This document shows positions 8,933 through 17,645 of a stretch of 59,569 bases of DNA, one piece after another. Each line of letters opens with the position of its first letter. The stretch's first letter is position 1. The notes beneath the pieces are model-generated. The model worked only from the letters and a program-made list of their open reading frames with translations. It ran no database searches and was not told the origin of the DNA. Origin of the DNA: an uncultured Clostridium sp. (lineage in GTDB: Bacteria; Bacillota_I; Bacilli_A; Acholeplasmatales; Anaeroplasmataceae); assembly GCA_946540005.1 (NCBI GenBank), contig CAMNHY010000005.1, forward strand, positions 1 to 59,569, read 5' to 3'. The position numbers were made by a program, and so were the translations under genes.

Positions 8933-8961
8933 TTGACAAGAATTTAAAAAATAGATATAAT
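8933..8961 (+). promoter_or_regulatory. Strong promoter of acpP
   Basis: -35 consensus TTGACA (8933-8938) and -10 consensus TATAAT (8956-8961) with 17-bp spacing: a perfect consensus promoter, as expected for an abundant carrier protein. It begins immediately after the xpt stop. Confidence 0.9.
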
Positions 8962-8989: not shown

Positions 8990-9220
8990 ATGGTATTTGA
9001 TGAAGTTAAAAAGATTATTGTTGATGAACTTAATGTTGATCCAGACAAAATTACTTTAGAGGCTACACTAGGAGAAGACCTAGGTGCTGACAGTCTTGAT
9101 GCTGTTGAAGTTATTATGGACCTTGAAGATAAGTTTGGCATCACTATTGATGATGAAACTGCTAAATCTTTTAAAACAGTTAAAGATGTAGTTGATTATA
9201 TCGAAGCACATCAAAATTAA
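8990..9220 (+). CDS. acpP: Acyl carrier protein
   Basis: 76 residues, acidic, four-helix carrier protein. The phosphopantetheine site is Ser35 in the motif LGADSLDAVE. It carries growing acyl chains in fatty acid synthesis in the cytoplasm. AGGAGGG (8977-8983) is a strong ribosome binding site, and the promoter is full consensus. It is monocistronic and far from fab genes in this window, unlike the common fabD-fabG-acpP order. Confidence 0.96.
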   Translation: MVFDEVKKIIVDELNVDPDKITLEATLGEDLGADSLDAVEVIMDLEDKFGITIDDETAKSFKTVKDVVDYIEAHQN

Positions 9221-9233
9221 TACATCGAATAAA

Positions 9234-9265
9234 AAAGGCTAGGTAACATCTAGCCTTTATTTTTA
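9234..9265 (+). terminator. Terminator after acpP
   Basis: Stem AAAGGCTAG/CTAGCCTTT (9234-9242 with 9250-9258) followed by T-rich sequence. Confidence 0.9.
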
Positions 9266-9284
9266 TAAGTTAGGGGGTGAAGTT

Positions 9285-11282
9285 ATGGATAATTCTCAAT
9301 TTGATTTAAAATTTATTAAAGAAACCAATACTAAGCATTTTTTTGATGCGGAAAATGATAGATATAAGAAAAAGAAATTATTATATAATTCTTTTGCTAA
9401 ACCAAATTCTTTTGAATTTGATTCTCAAACAATTTATCCATATATTTTAGCTGACACTTATAATAGATATTATAAGATGAATGGATATAATGTTTTATAT
9501 ATGACAGGACTTAATAATTTAAGTTTTTCATCTTATCAATTTTCAAAAAATCATAATATTGATTATTTAGAAAGTGGAAAGAAATATAGAGAGGCTATTG
9601 ATAATTTAAATATAGGATATGATTCTCATTATTTCTTTAATTTATCAGATAAAAAAATTGTATCTTTAATGGATGATTTTTTTAAGAGACATTATAAAAA
9701 AGATATTTTTTATGATAATATTGATGTCTATTCAACATCAATTAAGGATAGATATTATAATCATTTTGAAATAAAAGAAGAGAATAATAGATTTTATTCT
9801 AAATATACAAATGAAGAATTATTTAAGACTAAAGCTAAAGTATTTTATTTAGATATAAAAAAATATGAAGATAAAATAAGAGAAGAAATTAATAATTTAG
9901 ATTTAGATTTAAAATATAAAAATGAAATATTATCACTTCTTGGAGACTATCAAAATATAGTTGTACCATTTAATATATCTAAAGATTTAAAATTAGATAT
10001 AGAATTATCTCATCCTGAATATATGGCAGGTATTTCATTTATTGCGCTTAACCCAAAATATATGGATGTATTACCTTTTGTATCTGAAGAAGAATATAAT
10101 TTAGTATATAAGTTCATGCAAAATGGTTATGAAGATGGAAAATTTTCAGGACTTTTTTGCAAGAATCCATTAAATTATAATGACATATGCATTATGATTA
10201 GCTACAATTTTGAAGAAGCTATTCATGTAGGAATTCCTGAAATAAGTGATATAGATAAGGAGTTTTGTAATAAATTTGGATTAGAGTATTTATTAATAAC
10301 TTCTAATAATCATTTAATACATAGTGATTTTTTAGATGGCCTTACTCCTATTGATGCTCGTAAGACAATTATTGATGCTTTTTCAAATGAAGGTGCATGT
10401 GAAGTAATTAATCATTTTAGACAGGATAAAATTATTATTTCATCAACTGATGAAACAGGAGCTCCTATTCCTTTTGAAATTACAAAAGATGGATTCGATT
10501 ATTCTGTATTAGAAAGTCAATATTATCCATTATTATACAATCGTTTTGGAAAAGTAATATATGGTAAGACTCCTTCATATCCTGTTGAATTGGTTAATTT
10601 AACTTTTAATAATTTATATCAAACTTCAATTTTAAGAATGTTCTTACAAAATAAAGATAATTATTATAGTTTTCAAGATTTTTTAAATTATGAAGAAGAT
10701 TTTATATATGAATCTGAACTTGCTAATGAAATATTATTTCCTTTAATATTTAATATAATTGATTCTAACGAAATTAGAAAAATTAAATATCATATTATGT
10801 TAGAAGAATATCCTGATTATCAATTAATTAATGAAAATAATAATTTAAATATTCATTTTGTATCAGATGTATTAACTAGATGTAGTAGAGATGCGTTAAG
10901 ATTTTATATTTTACAACATCCAAATGATACAAATTTTGAAGAATCAATTTTAAAAATTAATAAAATAGATAAATTTTTAGAAGATGTATATACTAAATAT
11001 TATGAAGGTTTTTCAGATGTTAATATGGAACTTGATAATACAATTTATGATCTTGTAAATGATTTAACTAATGATATTAATAATCTTAGAATAGATTTAT
11101 ATGTTTCTAAACTTGAATATGTATTTAATAATAAAATTAGAAATAAAAAATGGACAGAAGATGAAGCTCTTATATATTTAAAGCTTTTATCTATTGTCTG
11201 TCCATTTATTACAGAATTCTTATTTGAAAATGTATTTAATCAGCATAATTATATAATATTTGAAGAATGGCCTAAATATTAG
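9285..11282 (+). CDS. Degenerate leucyl-tRNA synthetase-like protein lacking catalytic motifs
   Basis: 665 residues; co-linear with bacterial LeuRS (about 805). Matches seen: DTYNRYYKMNGYNVL (57-71) to the helix and strand after HIGH; FSGLFCKNPLNYNDICIM to the FTGAYAINP editing-domain segment; HSDFLDGLTPIDARKTIIDAF to the block before RLRDW; DALRFYILQHPNDTNFE to the region after KMSKS; and CPFITEFLFENVF...WP at the anticodon-binding end. Yet HIGH is replaced by DSQT (46-49), KMSKS is absent, NWCP becomes VYSTS, the editing TTRPDT and its catalytic Asp region are lost. So it keeps the scaffold without the aminoacylation or editing chemistry. It cannot be a normal synthetase; a regulatory or tRNA-binding role is inference. 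It overlaps the convergent gene by four bases. Confidence 0.75.
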   Translation: MDNSQFDLKFIKETNTKHFFDAENDRYKKKKLLYNSFAKPNSFEFDSQTIYPYILADTYNRYYKMNGYNVLYMTGLNNLSFSSYQFSKNHNIDYLESGKKYREAIDNLNIGYDSHYFFNLSDKKIVSLMDDFFKRHYKKDIFYDNIDVYSTSIKDRYYNHFEIKEENNRFYSKYTNEELFKTKAKVFYLDIKKYEDKIREEINNLDLDLKYKNEILSLLGDYQNIVVPFNISKDLKLDIELSHPEYMAGISFIALNPKYMDVLPFVSEEEYNLVYKFMQNGYEDGKFSGLFCKNPLNYNDICIMISYNFEEAIHVGIPEISDIDKEFCNKFGLEYLLITSNNHLIHSDFLDGLTPIDARKTIIDAFSNEGACEVINHFRQDKIIISSTDETGAPIPFEITKDGFDYSVLESQYYPLLYNRFGKVIYGKTPSYPVELVNLTFNNLYQTSILRMFLQNKDNYYSFQDFLNYEEDFIYESELANEILFPLIFNIIDSNEIRKIKYHIMLEEYPDYQLINENNNLNIHFVSDVLTRCSRDALRFYILQHPNDTNFEESILKINKIDKFLEDVYTKYYEGFSDVNMELDNTIYDLVNDLTNDINNLRIDLYVSKLEYVFNNKIRNKKWTEDEALIYLKLLSIVCPFITEFLFENVFNQHNYIIFEEWPKY

Positions 11283-12211
11283 TCATTAAAATGGTCGCCT
11301 TGAAATACATTAAGTTTTCTCATTTGCTTATCTATTTCATTCATTACGACCATTTTTTTTATTGTCCATTTAGGTTCAATTAAATCTTCAATAGGTGCGT
11401 CAGCACAAAGTCTATGAACTATTACATTTGGATCTAAAATTTGTAATTGTTCAATTACAATATCTCTATATTCTAAAAGTGTTGGCAAATGCCATGGGTT
11501 AGCTAAATAATCATGAGCCATTTTAGTTCCTTTTATAATGCATAATTCATGGATTTTTATACCATCTATATGTAATTTATTTAAAAAATGAATGGTATTT
11601 AACATATCTTCTTTAGTTTCACCAGGAAGACCATTCATAATATGTACAACAACTTCAATATTATTTTCTTTAAGTTTTTTTACAGCCTCAATAAATTCTA
11701 AATTAGTATGGCATCTATTTAATAGTTCACCTGTTTTTTCATTAGATGTCTGCAAACCTAATTCAATTTGTACATGACATTTTTTATTTAAGTTTGCTAA
11801 AAATTCTATTTTATCATCTTCAAGGCAATCACATCTTGTACCAATTGATATTTCTTTTACTAAAGGATCAAGCCTTATAGCTTTTTCGAATAATTCTTTA
11901 AGTATAGGAAGAGGTGCATATGTGTTTGTATTTGCCTGAAAATATGGTATATAATAAGCGTCAGGCCATTTTTTATCAATTATTTCCTTTACAGAATTAA
12001 ATTGTTTTTCAATAGGATCAAATCTATTTCCTGCAAAATCACCTGAACCAAGGCGTGAACAATATGTACATCCGCCATATCCTTTTTTACCATCCTTATT
12101 TGGACAAGTAAAATTCATATTAAGGCTTATTTTAACCATTTTTTTACCATATTTTTGTTTATAATAATTACTTAAAGTGTTATAGTGTTTTTCTGATGTA
12201 AAAAAATTCAT
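11279..12211 (-). CDS. Radical SAM protein, YtqA/TIGR01212 family
   Basis: 310 residues. The cluster-binding cysteines are Cys36, Cys48 and Cys51 in FTCPNKDG...GGCTYCS, the spaced C-x11-C-x2-C pattern of the TIGR01212/YtqA family rather than the usual CxxxCxxC. It then shows GTRCDC, QIELGLQTSN and HIMNGLPGET blocks typical of the family. It should bind a 4Fe-4S cluster and SAM in the cytoplasm; in the Bacillus family members a role in tRNA modification has been suggested, so the substrate is uncertain. The ATG is preceded by GGTGAT. It is convergent with the LeuRS-like gene (four-base overlap) and divergent from the 12326 gene. Confidence 0.88.
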   Translation of the reverse strand: MNFFTSEKHYNTLSNYYKQKYGKKMVKISLNMNFTCPNKDGKKGYGGCTYCSRLGSGDFAGNRFDPIEKQFNSVKEIIDKKWPDAYYIPYFQANTNTYAPLPILKELFEKAIRLDPLVKEISIGTRCDCLEDDKIEFLANLNKKCHVQIELGLQTSNEKTGELLNRCHTNLEFIEAVKKLKENNIEVVVHIMNGLPGETKEDMLNTIHFLNKLHIDGIKIHELCIIKGTKMAHDYLANPWHLPTLLEYRDIVIEQLQILDPNVIVHRLCADAPIEDLIEPKWTIKKMVVMNEIDKQMRKLNVFQGDHFND

Positions 12212-12325: not shown

Positions 12326-13111
12326 ATGATTAGAAGATTATACAATTCATTATTTAGACCAAAATATATTGCATTATATTTAAAGGATAAATTATGGCTA
12401 TCTTTTTTATATTTAATAATTTTATTTTTAGTATCTTTATCTCCTGCAATTGTTAAATATAGTGTTACACAAAATAATATTTCTTTTACAGATTTAAACA
12501 ACGCAGTTGATTTGATTCCAGAAAATTCAAATGCTAAAGTTGTTGATTATGTATTTAGTACTGATAATGCATTTCAAATTAAAGTAGATACAGTTACATA
12601 TAATTTTGGTACAAAGGATTTATATGTACCAAATAAGGGAGTAACATTTGTATATTCTGGTGAAAATATTATTGTTTATCAAGACGGAGTGAAATTAATT
12701 ACTGATTCATTTAAAAATATTGGTGTCAAAGATATTAATTTCTATAAAGTTAAAACTGACAGCAAAGAATATGCAAATTATTATGTAATGATGAATACAA
12801 TTTATAATAAATATTTTAGATTATCTAATCTTAATTATGGAGTTGAGGTTGTTAGAAGTGGTTTAGTTGAAACTATTTTAATTGTAGTTGTATTATATTT
12901 TGCAGTATCTATGATGGCACCATTCTTAAAAGGAAATCATAAATTAAATATTGTAATATATTCTCTAACTTGGTATTTTGTATTGATGTTTATATCAAAT
13001 GCTACAGTTTTAACATATCTTTATTTTGTAGGTTTAGTGATTGCGTTTATATTTATAAGAAAAGCTTTATCTAGTATAAAGATTATACAAATTCCAAAGG
13101 GAAGTAAATAA
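12326..13111 (+). CDS. DUF1189-like membrane protein
   Basis: 261 residues. One helix near the N-terminus (about 24-45), a roughly 130-residue extracytoplasmic domain with repeated strands, then three helices (about 183-205, 213-231, 233-250). An N-terminal LFRPKYIALYL segment and this layout fit DUF1189 membrane proteins of Firmicutes, whose role is unknown. An extended -10 promoter (TGC then TATAAT at 12288-12293) and a GAAAGGAG ribosome binding site precede it. The polC gene follows after one base, so it probably shares the polC transcript. Confidence 0.55.
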   Translation: MIRRLYNSLFRPKYIALYLKDKLWLSFLYLIILFLVSLSPAIVKYSVTQNNISFTDLNNAVDLIPENSNAKVVDYVFSTDNAFQIKVDTVTYNFGTKDLYVPNKGVTFVYSGENIIVYQDGVKLITDSFKNIGVKDINFYKVKTDSKEYANYYVMMNTIYNKYFRLSNLNYGVEVVRSGLVETILIVVVLYFAVSMMAPFLKGNHKLNIVIYSLTWYFVLMFISNATVLTYLYFVGLVIAFIFIRKALSSIKIIQIPKGSK

Positions 13112-13112
13112 T

Positions 13113-16100
13113 ATGAGTAGTAAATATGAGGAATTTTTAAAGAAAAATCTTAAGATTAATTTTGAACAAAACGAGATTATTTCATCTCAAGTTCTTCAAA
13201 ATGAAGCGAGAGAAGCGTTAATTACTCTTAAATTAAAAAAGCCATTAAAGCTTGAAGAATATAACGAACTAAAAGAATTAAATCATCAATTATTTGTAGT
13301 TAAAGCTAATAGACCTAGTGTTTGTACAAATTTATCTTATGAAGAATTAGATTTAGAAAGTAGTGAAGCGCTAAAATATATTAATCAAGCTATATTAGAT
13401 TTAGCTAATGAAAAGCCAAGATTTAAATGTTTAGAGGGCTTAACTATTAATGTTAAAAATAATACTTTTGTTTTTTCTGTTGATAAAGATTCAATGTTCT
13501 TACAACAAAATTCAAAATATATTAGTGAAAAATTAAAGCCATGTGGTATTAATTATAATATCGAATTTGTTGTTGATCCAAATTTAAAATCTCTTCGTCA
13601 ACAAACTATTGAACAGGTTCAACAAGACATTAAAAAACTTGAAGATAATCAACCTAAAATTATTGTTAATAAGGAAGAAAATGAACAAAAGAAAACAAAA
13701 TACTATAACAGTAAAAGGATTAATGTTGAAGAAATTTCAAAGATATCAGAAATTCCTTATGATCAACAAGGCTTATTAACATATAGTGAACAAATTGGTG
13801 AATTATTCTTTAGAGTTCAAGGTGCTATTTTTAAAAAAGATATTTCTAAGAAAAAAATTTCATGGTTATGTAAATTATCTATTTATGATGGTACAGATTC
13901 TATTAATGTATCTAAATGGGTAAAAGAAGGAGAGGAACTTAACGCTGTAAATGAATGGAAAATTGGTTCTGTTATTGATGTTGTAGGTAGAGCTGAATAT
14001 TCTCAATATGAGCGTGATGTAACAATCCAATGTGACCATTGGTCACTTATTGGTCAAACTGAGACTAAAGAAATAATTGATGATGCACCTGTTAAACGTG
14101 TTGAACTTCAAGTACACACTAAGATGACTAATCTTGATGGTATTTCAGATGCATCTGATTATGTAAAAACCGCAGTTAAGTGGGGAATGCATTCAATGGC
14201 ATTTACTGATACATCAGGTATTTATGAAATTCCTGATATTTTACATAATATGCCTCGTGATTTTGATTTTAAACCTATTTATGGAGTTGAATTACCATAT
14301 ATAGATTACAATAAATATAAAATAGCTTTAACTGATGAAGATATTGAGTTAAAGAATGCTACTTATACTGTATTTGACTTAGAAACTACGGGTTTATCTC
14401 AAACATATGACAATATCATTGAAATATCTTGTATGAAGGTTAAACAAGGTGCAATTATTGAAAAATTAGATACATTTGTTAACCCGGGATATCATATTGA
14501 TGAACGTATAACAGAATTAACTTCTATTACAGATGAAATGGTTAAAAATGCTCCTTATATTGAAGAGGCATTACCTATGTTTTTAGAGTTTGCAAAAGGT
14601 ACTATTTTAGTAGGTCATAATGTACAATTTGACACTGGTATGATTTATGCTAAAGAAAGACAAATTGGCATGAAAGACATTATTACTTTCCCTGCAATAG
14701 ACACTGCAAACTTATTTAGAGCTTATTGTAACCCTGATGTTGATCCTGATAGAGGTGTTAAGAAATTTAATCTTGAAGTATTAGCTAAATATTTTAAGGT
14801 CCGTGAAGACCAACACCATAGAGCTAATGATGACACAAGAGTTACACAAGAATGCTTCGTACAAATGCTTGGAGATTTATATAAGAGAGGAATTTATAAT
14901 TATAAAGATATTAATTCTATTATTGATGAATCTAATTTCTTTAAATATTTAATTCCTTCAACTATAAATATTTTAGTTAAAAACCAAGTCGGATTTAAAA
15001 ACTTATATAAATTACTTTCAGATTCTCTTACAATACACTGTGCTCAAGATGCTAGACTTATGTCTAATATTCTTGCACGCTTCAGAGAAGGTTTAATTGT
15101 ATTTGAAGGTGGATATAGATCTAATGTATTCGAATGGGCATTAAGAAGAAGTGAAGATGAAGTTAAAGAAGAAATGTCTCACTTAGACTTTGTAGCTGTT
15201 CAACCTCCTTTAGCTTATCAACATTTAATAAGTGATATGCCTAATGGAGAAGAAAGAATTAAAGATACTATTAAGAAAATTATTAGATTAGCTAAAGAAA
15301 TGGGTAAACCAGTTTGTGCTACATCTAATTGTTACTACATTGACCCTAATGATAAAAAATATCGTGAAATATTAATTGCTGCACCTCAAGTTGGGGGTGG
15401 ATTTAATGATTTAAATAAATATCTAAATCATTATAATGTTTCACCTGATGCACATTTACGTACTACAAAAGAAATGTGTGAGGAATTTAGTTTCTTAGGA
15501 GATAAGGATTTAATTGAAGAAATCGTTATCACAAACACTAATAAGATTGCAGATATGATTGAGCATATTCAAGTCTTCCCTGAAGATAATAAAGAAACAG
15601 GAGAAGAAGCTATGAAGGCTCCTCGTGATGACCAATTTAGTGAATCTTTAGGTATTCCATCTCTTGTTGAAGACATGAAACGTATTGTTAATATGAATCT
15701 TGATCGATTATATGGACATGAGAAGATTCATCCAATTGTTCAAAAGAGACTTGATAGAGAATTAAATTCGATCATTGGCGCTGGTTATGCATCTACATAT
15801 TATATGTCATATTTAATGGTACATAAATCTGTTGAAGATGGATATATGGTTGGTTCACGTGGTTCTGTAGGTTCATCATTTGTTGCGACACTTATGGATA
15901 TCACAGAAATTAACCCTCTTCCACCTCATTATAGGTGCCCTAAATGTAAGTTCCATGTCTTTAAAATGACTGAGGAACAAAAGAAAGAATATGGCGTAAG
16001 TGATAAAGAAGCACCATTTATGAAAGATTTGGATAATATCTTATCGGGATATGATTTACCAGATGCAAATTGTCCATGTTGTGGAACAAGAATGGTTAAA

Positions 16101-17645
16101 GATGGTCATGATATTCCATTTGAAACATTCTTAGGTTTCAATGGTGATAAAGTACCTGACATTGACTTAAACTTTTCATCTGAATATCAATCAAGAGCGC
16201 ACGCATTTATTAAAGAGGTATTTGGTGTAACACATTCATTTAGAGCTGGTACATTGGCTACTATTGCTGATAAGAACGCAATAGGTTATGTAAAAGGTTA
16301 TGCAGAAAAGAAGAATTTACGTCTTAGATCTTGTGAAATAGAAAGATTAAGCACAAAAATTATTGGTGTAAAGAGATCAACAGGTCAACACCCTGGTGGT
16401 ATTGTTGTTGTACCTAAATATTTTGATATTTTCTCAGTTACTCCAATTCAATATGCATCTAATAATACTGAAAACGAATGGATGACTACACATTATGATT
16501 ATCACTCATTTGAATCAAATTTATTAAAGCTTGACTGTCTAGGTCATGACGATCCTACTATGATTCGTTATTTCATGGATTATGTAGCACTTCATCCCGA
16601 GAAATATCCATTTAGTAGAGCTCAAGATATTCCAATTGATGATCATAATGTATATCAAATGTTTGGTGGTACTGATATTTTACATTTAAAGCCTGAACAA
16701 ATTGATTCAAATGTTGCGTCATTTGCCGTTCCTGAATTTGGTACAAATTTCGTTAGACAAATGTTAAATGACACATTACCTAATACATTTGCTCAACTAG
16801 TTAAAATATCTGGTTTATCACATGGTACAAATGTATGGTTAAATAATGCACAAGCATTAGTTTTAGGTACATCAGTTAATGGAAAGATTCCTTTTGCTGA
16901 CGTAATAGGATGTCGTGATGACGTTATGCTTGACTTAATTAATATGGGTTGTGATCCTTCAACTTCATTTAAGATAATGGAGTTCGTTCGTAAGAATAAA
17001 AAGGTAAAAGATCCTAAAAAGTGGGAAGAATTTAAAGCTTATATGAGAGAAAAAAAGGTACCTGAGTGGTATATTTGGTCATGTGAGCGAATTGAATATC
17101 TATTCCCTAAAGCTCACGCTACAGCTTATGTATTAATGGCATTGCGTATTGCATGGTTTAAGATGTATTCACCAGCCTTATTCTATTCAGGATGGTTCTC
17201 AAAACGTGCAAAAGCTTGGGATATAGAAACATTCCCTAAATCAATAGATTTAATTAAACAAAAAATAAGAATTTTAAATGAAAATCCAAAGAAGACTGCA
17301 AAAGATGATGATCAAATAACTGCCTTACAAGTTGCGTGTGAAGCACGTGCTAGAGGTATTAAGTTCTTACCTATTGATATTAATTTATCAAAAGGATTAA
17401 TATTTGATGTTGTTGATGATGAAACTCTTCGTATGCCATTTGTGGCTGTAGATGGACTTGGTGAAGCTGCCGCTTTATCTATAGAAGAGGCTAGAAAAGA
17501 AAAAGCCTTTACTTCCATTGAAGATGTAATGGAACGTACTAAATTATCTAAAACACTTTGTGATTATTTCAAAAAGATTGGTGCGTTTGGAGATCTTCCT
17601 GAAAAGGATGAGGCTAAATTAAAAGGTTTATTTAATTTCTTATAA
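13113..17645 (+). CDS. polC: DNA polymerase III alpha subunit, PolC type
   Basis: 1510 residues, the replicative polymerase of low-GC Gram-positives. Order seen: N-terminal domain, OB domain (about 230-320), split PHP domain (about 328-400 and 620-780), inserted DnaQ-like 3'-5' exonuclease (DLETTG near 421, HNVQFDTG, HHRANDDTR), zinc module (CPKC...CPCC near 945-990) and polymerase core (GSRGSVGSS near 915, PDIDLNFS near 1014). The proofreading motifs are intact. The PHP metal ligands are not: the usual HLHT is QVHT, TDH is TDT, and NVHYL is NCYYI. So the PHP part is probably structural. A terminator follows. Confidence 0.97.
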   Translation: MSSKYEEFLKKNLKINFEQNEIISSQVLQNEAREALITLKLKKPLKLEEYNELKELNHQLFVVKANRPSVCTNLSYEELDLESSEALKYINQAILDLANEKPRFKCLEGLTINVKNNTFVFSVDKDSMFLQQNSKYISEKLKPCGINYNIEFVVDPNLKSLRQQTIEQVQQDIKKLEDNQPKIIVNKEENEQKKTKYYNSKRINVEEISKISEIPYDQQGLLTYSEQIGELFFRVQGAIFKKDISKKKISWLCKLSIYDGTDSINVSKWVKEGEELNAVNEWKIGSVIDVVGRAEYSQYERDVTIQCDHWSLIGQTETKEIIDDAPVKRVELQVHTKMTNLDGISDASDYVKTAVKWGMHSMAFTDTSGIYEIPDILHNMPRDFDFKPIYGVELPYIDYNKYKIALTDEDIELKNATYTVFDLETTGLSQTYDNIIEISCMKVKQGAIIEKLDTFVNPGYHIDERITELTSITDEMVKNAPYIEEALPMFLEFAKGTILVGHNVQFDTGMIYAKERQIGMKDIITFPAIDTANLFRAYCNPDVDPDRGVKKFNLEVLAKYFKVREDQHHRANDDTRVTQECFVQMLGDLYKRGIYNYKDINSIIDESNFFKYLIPSTINILVKNQVGFKNLYKLLSDSLTIHCAQDARLMSNILARFREGLIVFEGGYRSNVFEWALRRSEDEVKEEMSHLDFVAVQPPLAYQHLISDMPNGEERIKDTIKKIIRLAKEMGKPVCATSNCYYIDPNDKKYREILIAAPQVGGGFNDLNKYLNHYNVSPDAHLRTTKEMCEEFSFLGDKDLIEEIVITNTNKIADMIEHIQVFPEDNKETGEEAMKAPRDDQFSESLGIPSLVEDMKRIVNMNLDRLYGHEKIHPIVQKRLDRELNSIIGAGYASTYYMSYLMVHKSVEDGYMVGSRGSVGSSFVATLMDITEINPLPPHYRCPKCKFHVFKMTEEQKKEYGVSDKEAPFMKDLDNILSGYDLPDANCPCCGTRMVKDGHDIPFETFLGFNGDKVPDIDLNFSSEYQSRAHAFIKEVFGVTHSFRAGTLATIADKNAIGYVKGYAEKKNLRLRSCEIERLSTKIIGVKRSTGQHPGGIVVVPKYFDIFSVTPIQYASNNTENEWMTTHYDYHSFESNLLKLDCLGHDDPTMIRYFMDYVALHPEKYPFSRAQDIPIDDHNVYQMFGGTDILHLKPEQIDSNVASFAVPEFGTNFVRQMLNDTLPNTFAQLVKISGLSHGTNVWLNNAQALVLGTSVNGKIPFADVIGCRDDVMLDLINMGCDPSTSFKIMEFVRKNKKVKDPKKWEEFKAYMREKKVPEWYIWSCERIEYLFPKAHATAYVLMALRIAWFKMYSPALFYSGWFSKRAKAWDIETFPKSIDLIKQKIRILNENPKKTAKDDDQITALQVACEARARGIKFLPIDINLSKGLIFDVVDDETLRMPFVAVDGLGEAAALSIEEARKEKAFTSIEDVMERTKLSKTLCDYFKKIGAFGDLPEKDEAKLKGLFNFL

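Follow-up and report, generated by a model that had tools for sequence, protein, structure and literature searches.

A leucyl-tRNA synthetase gene probably retired in place and kept as a non-catalytic protein

What keeps a reading frame intact when it resembles a leucyl-tRNA synthetase (LeuRS) over nearly its whole length and yet has lost that enzyme's catalytic motifs? The question is raised by positions 9285-11282 of the window, by which we mean the whole stretch of 59,569 nucleotides that was analysed; features lie on the forward strand unless stated otherwise. The frame there starts with ATG, is intact, and encodes a protein of 665 aa, referred to here as pseudo-LeuRS, a designation that draws on profile matches, orthologues and purifying selection. 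An initial annotation, made from the letters alone, had proposed a LeuRS relationship that is co-linear as far as the anticodon-binding end, and profile searches bear this out. The TIGR00396 profile (leuS_bact) matches residues 5-411 at 66.7 bits (E = 1.2e-18), below its equivalog cut-off of 548 bits, the LeuRS of PDB entry 5ah5 is matched with an E value of 4e-9, and a profile built from 39 orthologues matches E. coli LeuRS chains at 3e-45. When the pseudo-LeuRS profile was aligned with hhalign to native LeuRS, the enzyme of related families, the probability was 100% over 662 columns (E = 1.3e-67), with the alignment co-linear from the N-terminus and extending as far as the final residues of the anticodon-binding domain, whose fold is still detectable. 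The deficit in length corresponds to a C-terminal domain of 71 residues together with short deletions at the Zn module, in CP1 and in the region after CP1. A scan of viral contigs gave two weak matches only, at 20-23% identity, and Rfam searched at gathering thresholds across the window returned no match, with no T-box or known riboswitch. An AlphaFold2 model computed from a two-sequence alignment had a pLDDT of 31 and was discarded.

We counted the synthetase motifs over 39 aligned full-length orthologues, and by every motif examined the protein is dead, as had been claimed from the window sequence. The HIGH equivalent is DSQT, which aligns exactly to D46-S47-Q48-T49 (9420-9431), and neither of the two HIGH histidines is found in any orthologue (0/39 and 0/39). 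The adenylate-binding GGxEHA motif corresponds to IYESE (residues 474-478; 10704-10718), with both glycines and the histidine absent throughout (0/39), while KMSKS aligns with INENN (residues 515-519; 10827-10841), its first lysine being present in 5/39 and its second lysine position held by K or R in 31/39. The NWC Zn motif is absent. In the equivalent of the CP1 editing domain (residues 218-375; 9936-10409), TTRPDT has become LSHPEY (residues 241-246; 10005-10022), so that its threonines, Arg and Asp are lost and its Pro is kept in 39/39; the T252 equivalent is present in 0/39, and the GTG segment is lost too. As far as motif loss can tell, charging, adenylation and canonical editing would thus be excluded. 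The blocks DTYNRYYKMNGYNVL (residues 57-71) and DALRFYILQ (536-544), which the initial annotation had singled out as retained, are found at these places, and Asp324 (10254-10256), aligned with the editing-pocket D345 of E. coli LeuRS, is conserved in 39/39 orthologues. Conservation relative to native LeuRS is highest in CP1 (0.58) and in the N-terminal half (0.51), and lowest (0.38-0.41) in the linker/Zn region, the second catalytic half and the anticodon-binding domain (0.41). The protein is also more acidic, with a mean pI of 4.9 vs 6.0 for native LeuRS, and falls into two subtypes, in which native Glu61 is replaced by Arg (32 sequences) or, in the window's branch (g1, g3, g6), by Tyr or Phe.

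These motif losses are family-wide and not a local oddity. A clear orthologue, with 27% identity or more and a length of 645-690 aa, was found in 51 of the 55 genomes of the window's own family, bacteria with small genomes (f1); in one genome (G001) it is divided between two contigs. Of the four genomes without it, three fall short of 90% completeness; the remaining one (G054) is near-complete, and its contig ends just past the radical SAM gene, beside the locus. Across the class, 395 genomes were scanned at a threshold of 1e-75, which would miss weaker degenerate copies, and, intact LeuRS aside, strong matches were confined to f1. A degenerate LeuRS of 703 aa, less eroded than the f1 copies, stands at the native locus of G143 (L095:6535-8646), a genome of f3, another family of the same order. 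Its HIGH reads ILGD, it has no KMSKS, it retains the D345-equivalent Asp, and it ends at the same C-terminal point as the f1 copies; a fragment of a copy of this type lies at a contig end in G144. The G143 copy is a possible evolutionary intermediate.

Where this gene came from is told by its surroundings. In f1, the order is acpP, pseudo-leuS, a convergent radical SAM gene, a DUF1189 gene and polC. In the window, these are an acyl carrier protein of 76 aa immediately upstream (8990-9220; PF00550, 3e-16), the radical SAM protein on the reverse strand (11279-12211), a weak DUF1189 match (12326-13111) and polC, identified from its sequence and encoding 1510 aa (13113-17645), the last three serving as syntenic markers of the ancestral leuS locus. 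In f2 and f4, two other families of the same order, the same locus holds an intact leuS of about 800-811 aa between acpP and the same three markers, from which we take the window gene to be the native leuS, retired where it stood; in gene identity, although not in activity, it is an ortholog of native leuS at the same locus. The profile comparison points the same way, with hhalign scoring the f1 pseudo-LeuRS profile at 535 against native f2/f4 LeuRS (E 1.3e-67) and at 417 against the working LeuRS of f1 (E 8e-53). Pseudo-LeuRS and native LeuRS also have in common an ungapped ENDxxK stretch and a VFN/WP region near the C-terminal end. The best tree places pseudo-LeuRS with native LeuRS, but its branches are long and a grouping with the working f1 LeuRS is not rejected (AU p 0.28), so that the argument for native origin rests on synteny. 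Upstream of acpP the neighbourhood is otherwise variable; in g2 loci only (L065, L070, L072, L076, L078 and others), threonine synthase-, homoserine kinase- and ACT-domain-like frames precede it.

The family's charging enzyme is encoded elsewhere. The f1 genomes that carry the orthologue usually also encode, away from the pseudo-leuS locus, a LeuRS of about 800-810 aa (the working enzyme, ~805 aa) that keeps TTRxDT and a CP1 of its own. This protein has 70-71% identity to the LeuRS of families f17 and f14 and 57% to that of f2/f4, and trees place it with LeuRS of other orders with a support of 100, apart from f2/f4; the working LeuRS of f3 nests among those of f1. In one genome (G002, L169:2067-9728), the acquired leuS heads an aromatic-pathway gene run, tyrA-aroB-aroA-aroE-aroC. 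The second, true leuS that the initial annotation proposed to look for is present in the relatives; in the window's own MAG (G000), a working leuS was not found in the assembly. In a sister genome, leuS lies between tyrA and a 477-aa uronate-isomerase-like frame. The places concerned in G000 are the end of contig C6 (57338; L171), which cuts that frame there, and C9:39569-40393 (L170); tyrA adjoins a P-type ATPase in G000. Because the leuS neighbour is cut by the contig end at exactly this point, the absence is likely an assembly gap. The simplest history is that a second LeuRS was acquired and the first retired in place: the f1 ancestor would have taken up a LeuRS of the type found in other orders, which would now charge tRNALeu, while the old leuS would have stayed between acpP and polC, losing HIGH, GGxEHA and KMSKS (ATP binding) as well as TTRPDT (editing), and along with them its C-terminal domain and its own promoter.

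The loss of the promoter can be followed at the nucleotide level. Of 14 native leuS genes, 13 have a TATAAT no more than 70 nt upstream of the start, vs 3 of 40 pseudo-leuS genes (Fisher p 7e-9); the leuS promoter has therefore been lost, and pseudo-leuS probably depends on read-through from acpP. In the window, a sigma-70 promoter-like site matching the consensus at 12/12 positions (TTGACA-17-TATAAT) stands upstream of acpP (8933-8961), an intrinsic terminator-like hairpin of 11 bp followed by a T-rich tail lies between acpP and pseudo-leuS (9234-9258), and a Shine-Dalgarno-like AGGGGGTG of pseudo-leuS comes directly behind it (9272-9279). Such a hairpin with a T-rich tail precedes 33 of 41 pseudo-leuS genes, against 0.46 expected in shuffles. 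These signals suggest that pseudo-leuS is expressed weakly, by transcription that passes the terminator of acpP; a promoter inside the acpP coding sequence is conceivable, too. In the g3 genomes (L057, L058), the upstream neighbour is not acpP, and pseudo-leuS keeps a TATAAT there, unlike in the rest of the family.

Is the gene simply decaying, a native leuS that became superfluous on replacement and has been eroding since with no function left? Its promoter and catalytic motifs are gone, and it evolves faster than its neighbours, with a mean pairwise identity over 19 genomes of 32.5% for pseudo-LeuRS, vs 58.7% for PolC and 70.3% for LeuRS. However, full-length frames of near-constant length are intact in about 50 species, and dN/dS in the closest unsaturated orthologue pairs is 0.06-0.15 (dN 0.036 and dS 0.39 for G040/G039; dN 0.094 and dS 0.64 for G052/G053), about 1.4 to 3 times that of LeuRS or PolC in the same pairs. 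Because of these ratios, the protein is seen to be fast-evolving yet under purifying selection. Neutral sequence would break many times over such divergence, and the dN/dS values largely refute decay, which we regard as highly improbable. The marks of a pseudogene, relaxed selection and a broken frame, are both missing, in line with what had been claimed from the intact frame of the window, and a synthetase sequence with lost catalytic residues and maintained selection is what characterizes a non-catalytic aaRS paralogue. At the other extreme, a functional LeuRS with an altered signature, such as an antibiotic-resistant second copy, would have a parallel in IleRS2, where altered HXGH motifs such as GXHH can work, the histidines being rearranged rather than lost (PMC10485003). 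Active IleRS2 variants thus keep their histidines, whereas both are lost here in all 39 orthologues, GGxEHA and most of KMSKS are missing in all or nearly all of them, and the C-terminal domain is gone, which leaves this reading barely credible. A free-standing editing factor, with CP1 hydrolysing mis-acylated tRNALeu in trans, would suit the relatively good conservation of that domain and the invariant D345-equivalent Asp, but the erasure of the TTRPDT threonines, Arg and Asp, of the T252 equivalent and of the GTG segment, in a family whose working LeuRS retains TTRxDT and its own CP1, makes it very unlikely.

Binding without catalysis brings two further candidates. Pseudo-LeuRS could bind tRNALeu or Leu-tRNALeu, whether to chaperone, to sense or to sequester it. 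The detectable anticodon-binding fold would allow this, and archaeal LeuRS-I and LeuRS2 retain tRNALeu binding despite impaired charging, according to the account of them in PMC9437257. With the C-terminal domain absent, the anticodon-binding domain as heavily eroded as almost any part, and a pI lower than that of native LeuRS, tRNA binding is the less likely role, and we hold this candidate to be unlikely. Alternatively, the ACP of the upstream gene could carry something that pseudo-LeuRS loads or senses, which would tie lipid synthesis to leucine status. In at least 33 of some 39 loci, acpP is the adjacent upstream gene and has the same orientation, at a distance of 64 nt in the window; its product is the only ACP found in the window assembly and the only or best-scoring one in most genomes checked, and class II aaRS-derived ACP ligases exist (PMC9437257). 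Yet the same linkage occurs with intact leuS in f4 and in some f2 genomes, and the adjacency therefore predates degeneration. An ACP ligase, which adjacency had suggested, is weakened as a candidate by this ancestry. With the class I ATP and adenylate motifs gone, the protein lacks the intact aminoacyl-adenylate site of an amino acid:carrier-protein ligase, which leaves no route for class I ligase chemistry, and in g3 the gene has a neighbour other than ACP and its own TATAAT. An ACP partnership is accordingly quite unlikely.

The frame was kept intact by selection after catalytic loss, and should therefore have another job. We consider it probable, though by no means certain, that the native leuS was retired in place and is kept as a non-catalytic pseudoenzyme that binds a ligand or partner and is expressed at a low level by read-through. 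Because the N-terminal half and CP1 are the best-kept parts, the favoured role, judged from sequence conservation, is a binding or regulatory one placed on them, while tRNA charging, editing and ACP-specific ligase roles appear disfavoured. In this reading the N-terminal Rossmann half and CP1, both preserved, would make the contact with a ligand or partner, and pseudo-LeuRS would have a regulatory or scaffolding role comparable to that of HisZ instead of charging or editing tRNA. Of the initial annotation's proposal of a retained non-catalytic function, the core is upheld by the dead motifs and the low dN/dS, while tRNA binding, the first example it gave, becomes a less likely role with the C-terminal domain gone. 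A bolder and speculative version, to which we give a low probability, is that of a regulatory subunit, co-transcribed with acpP, that would sense a leucine-derived or ACP-bound ligand in a remodelled Rossmann/CP1 cleft and couple amino-acid supply to lipid synthesis; if it were true, horizontal replacement would have turned an essential translation enzyme, in place, into a signalling protein.

Non-catalytic synthetase paralogues are already known as a kind. HisZ is a HisRS paralogue that serves as a regulatory subunit of HisG. Like pseudo-LeuRS, it keeps an aaRS fold without adenylation activity and thus gives a precedent for a non-catalytic regulatory role (PMC9437257 describes it as a non-catalytic regulator); it differs in that it belongs to class II and its enzyme partner is known. 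SerRS-type amino acid:carrier-protein ligases are likewise aaRS-derived proteins encoded near an ACP, but they are class II and active, while for pseudo-LeuRS the linkage to ACP goes back to the ancestral locus and no active site is left. Closer in descent is LeuRS-I of the Sulfolobaceae (Weitzel 2020, cited in PMC9437257), which, as summarized there, makes leucyl-adenylate and binds tRNALeu but cannot aminoacylate. In that summary it resembles pseudo-LeuRS as a second LeuRS besides a working one, with a disrupted CP1, a divergent C-terminus and no aminoacylation, and it is wanted for optimal growth. LeuRS-I is archaeal and has kept adenylation, whereas pseudo-LeuRS is bacterial, represents the native copy, displaced by another LeuRS but still at its old locus, and has its adenylation motifs erased and its C-terminal domain missing. 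LeuRS2 of the Halobacteria (Fang 2014, cited in PMC9437257) is also presented as a divergent second LeuRS of unknown role, but one that retains weak charging and tRNA affinity. In the LeuRS row of that 2022 review of duplicated synthetases, the archaeal LeuRS-I and LeuRS2 are the only auxiliary forms, and the row names no function for a LeuRS-derived paralogue (PMC9437257). Judged by its motifs, pseudo-LeuRS appears to be a case of further loss than these archaeal ones, and a bacterial one.

Horizontal acquisition of an analogue that takes over from an essential gene normally ends with the loss of the old copy. In this case, the native leuS appears to have been kept at its original place, under selection and family-wide, after the loss of its essential activity. 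The locus would thus offer a syntenically anchored natural experiment in the passage from a translation enzyme to a non-catalytic protein, in which the gene can be compared with the active relatives that the sister families have at this locus and with a possible intermediate, the 703-aa copy of G143.
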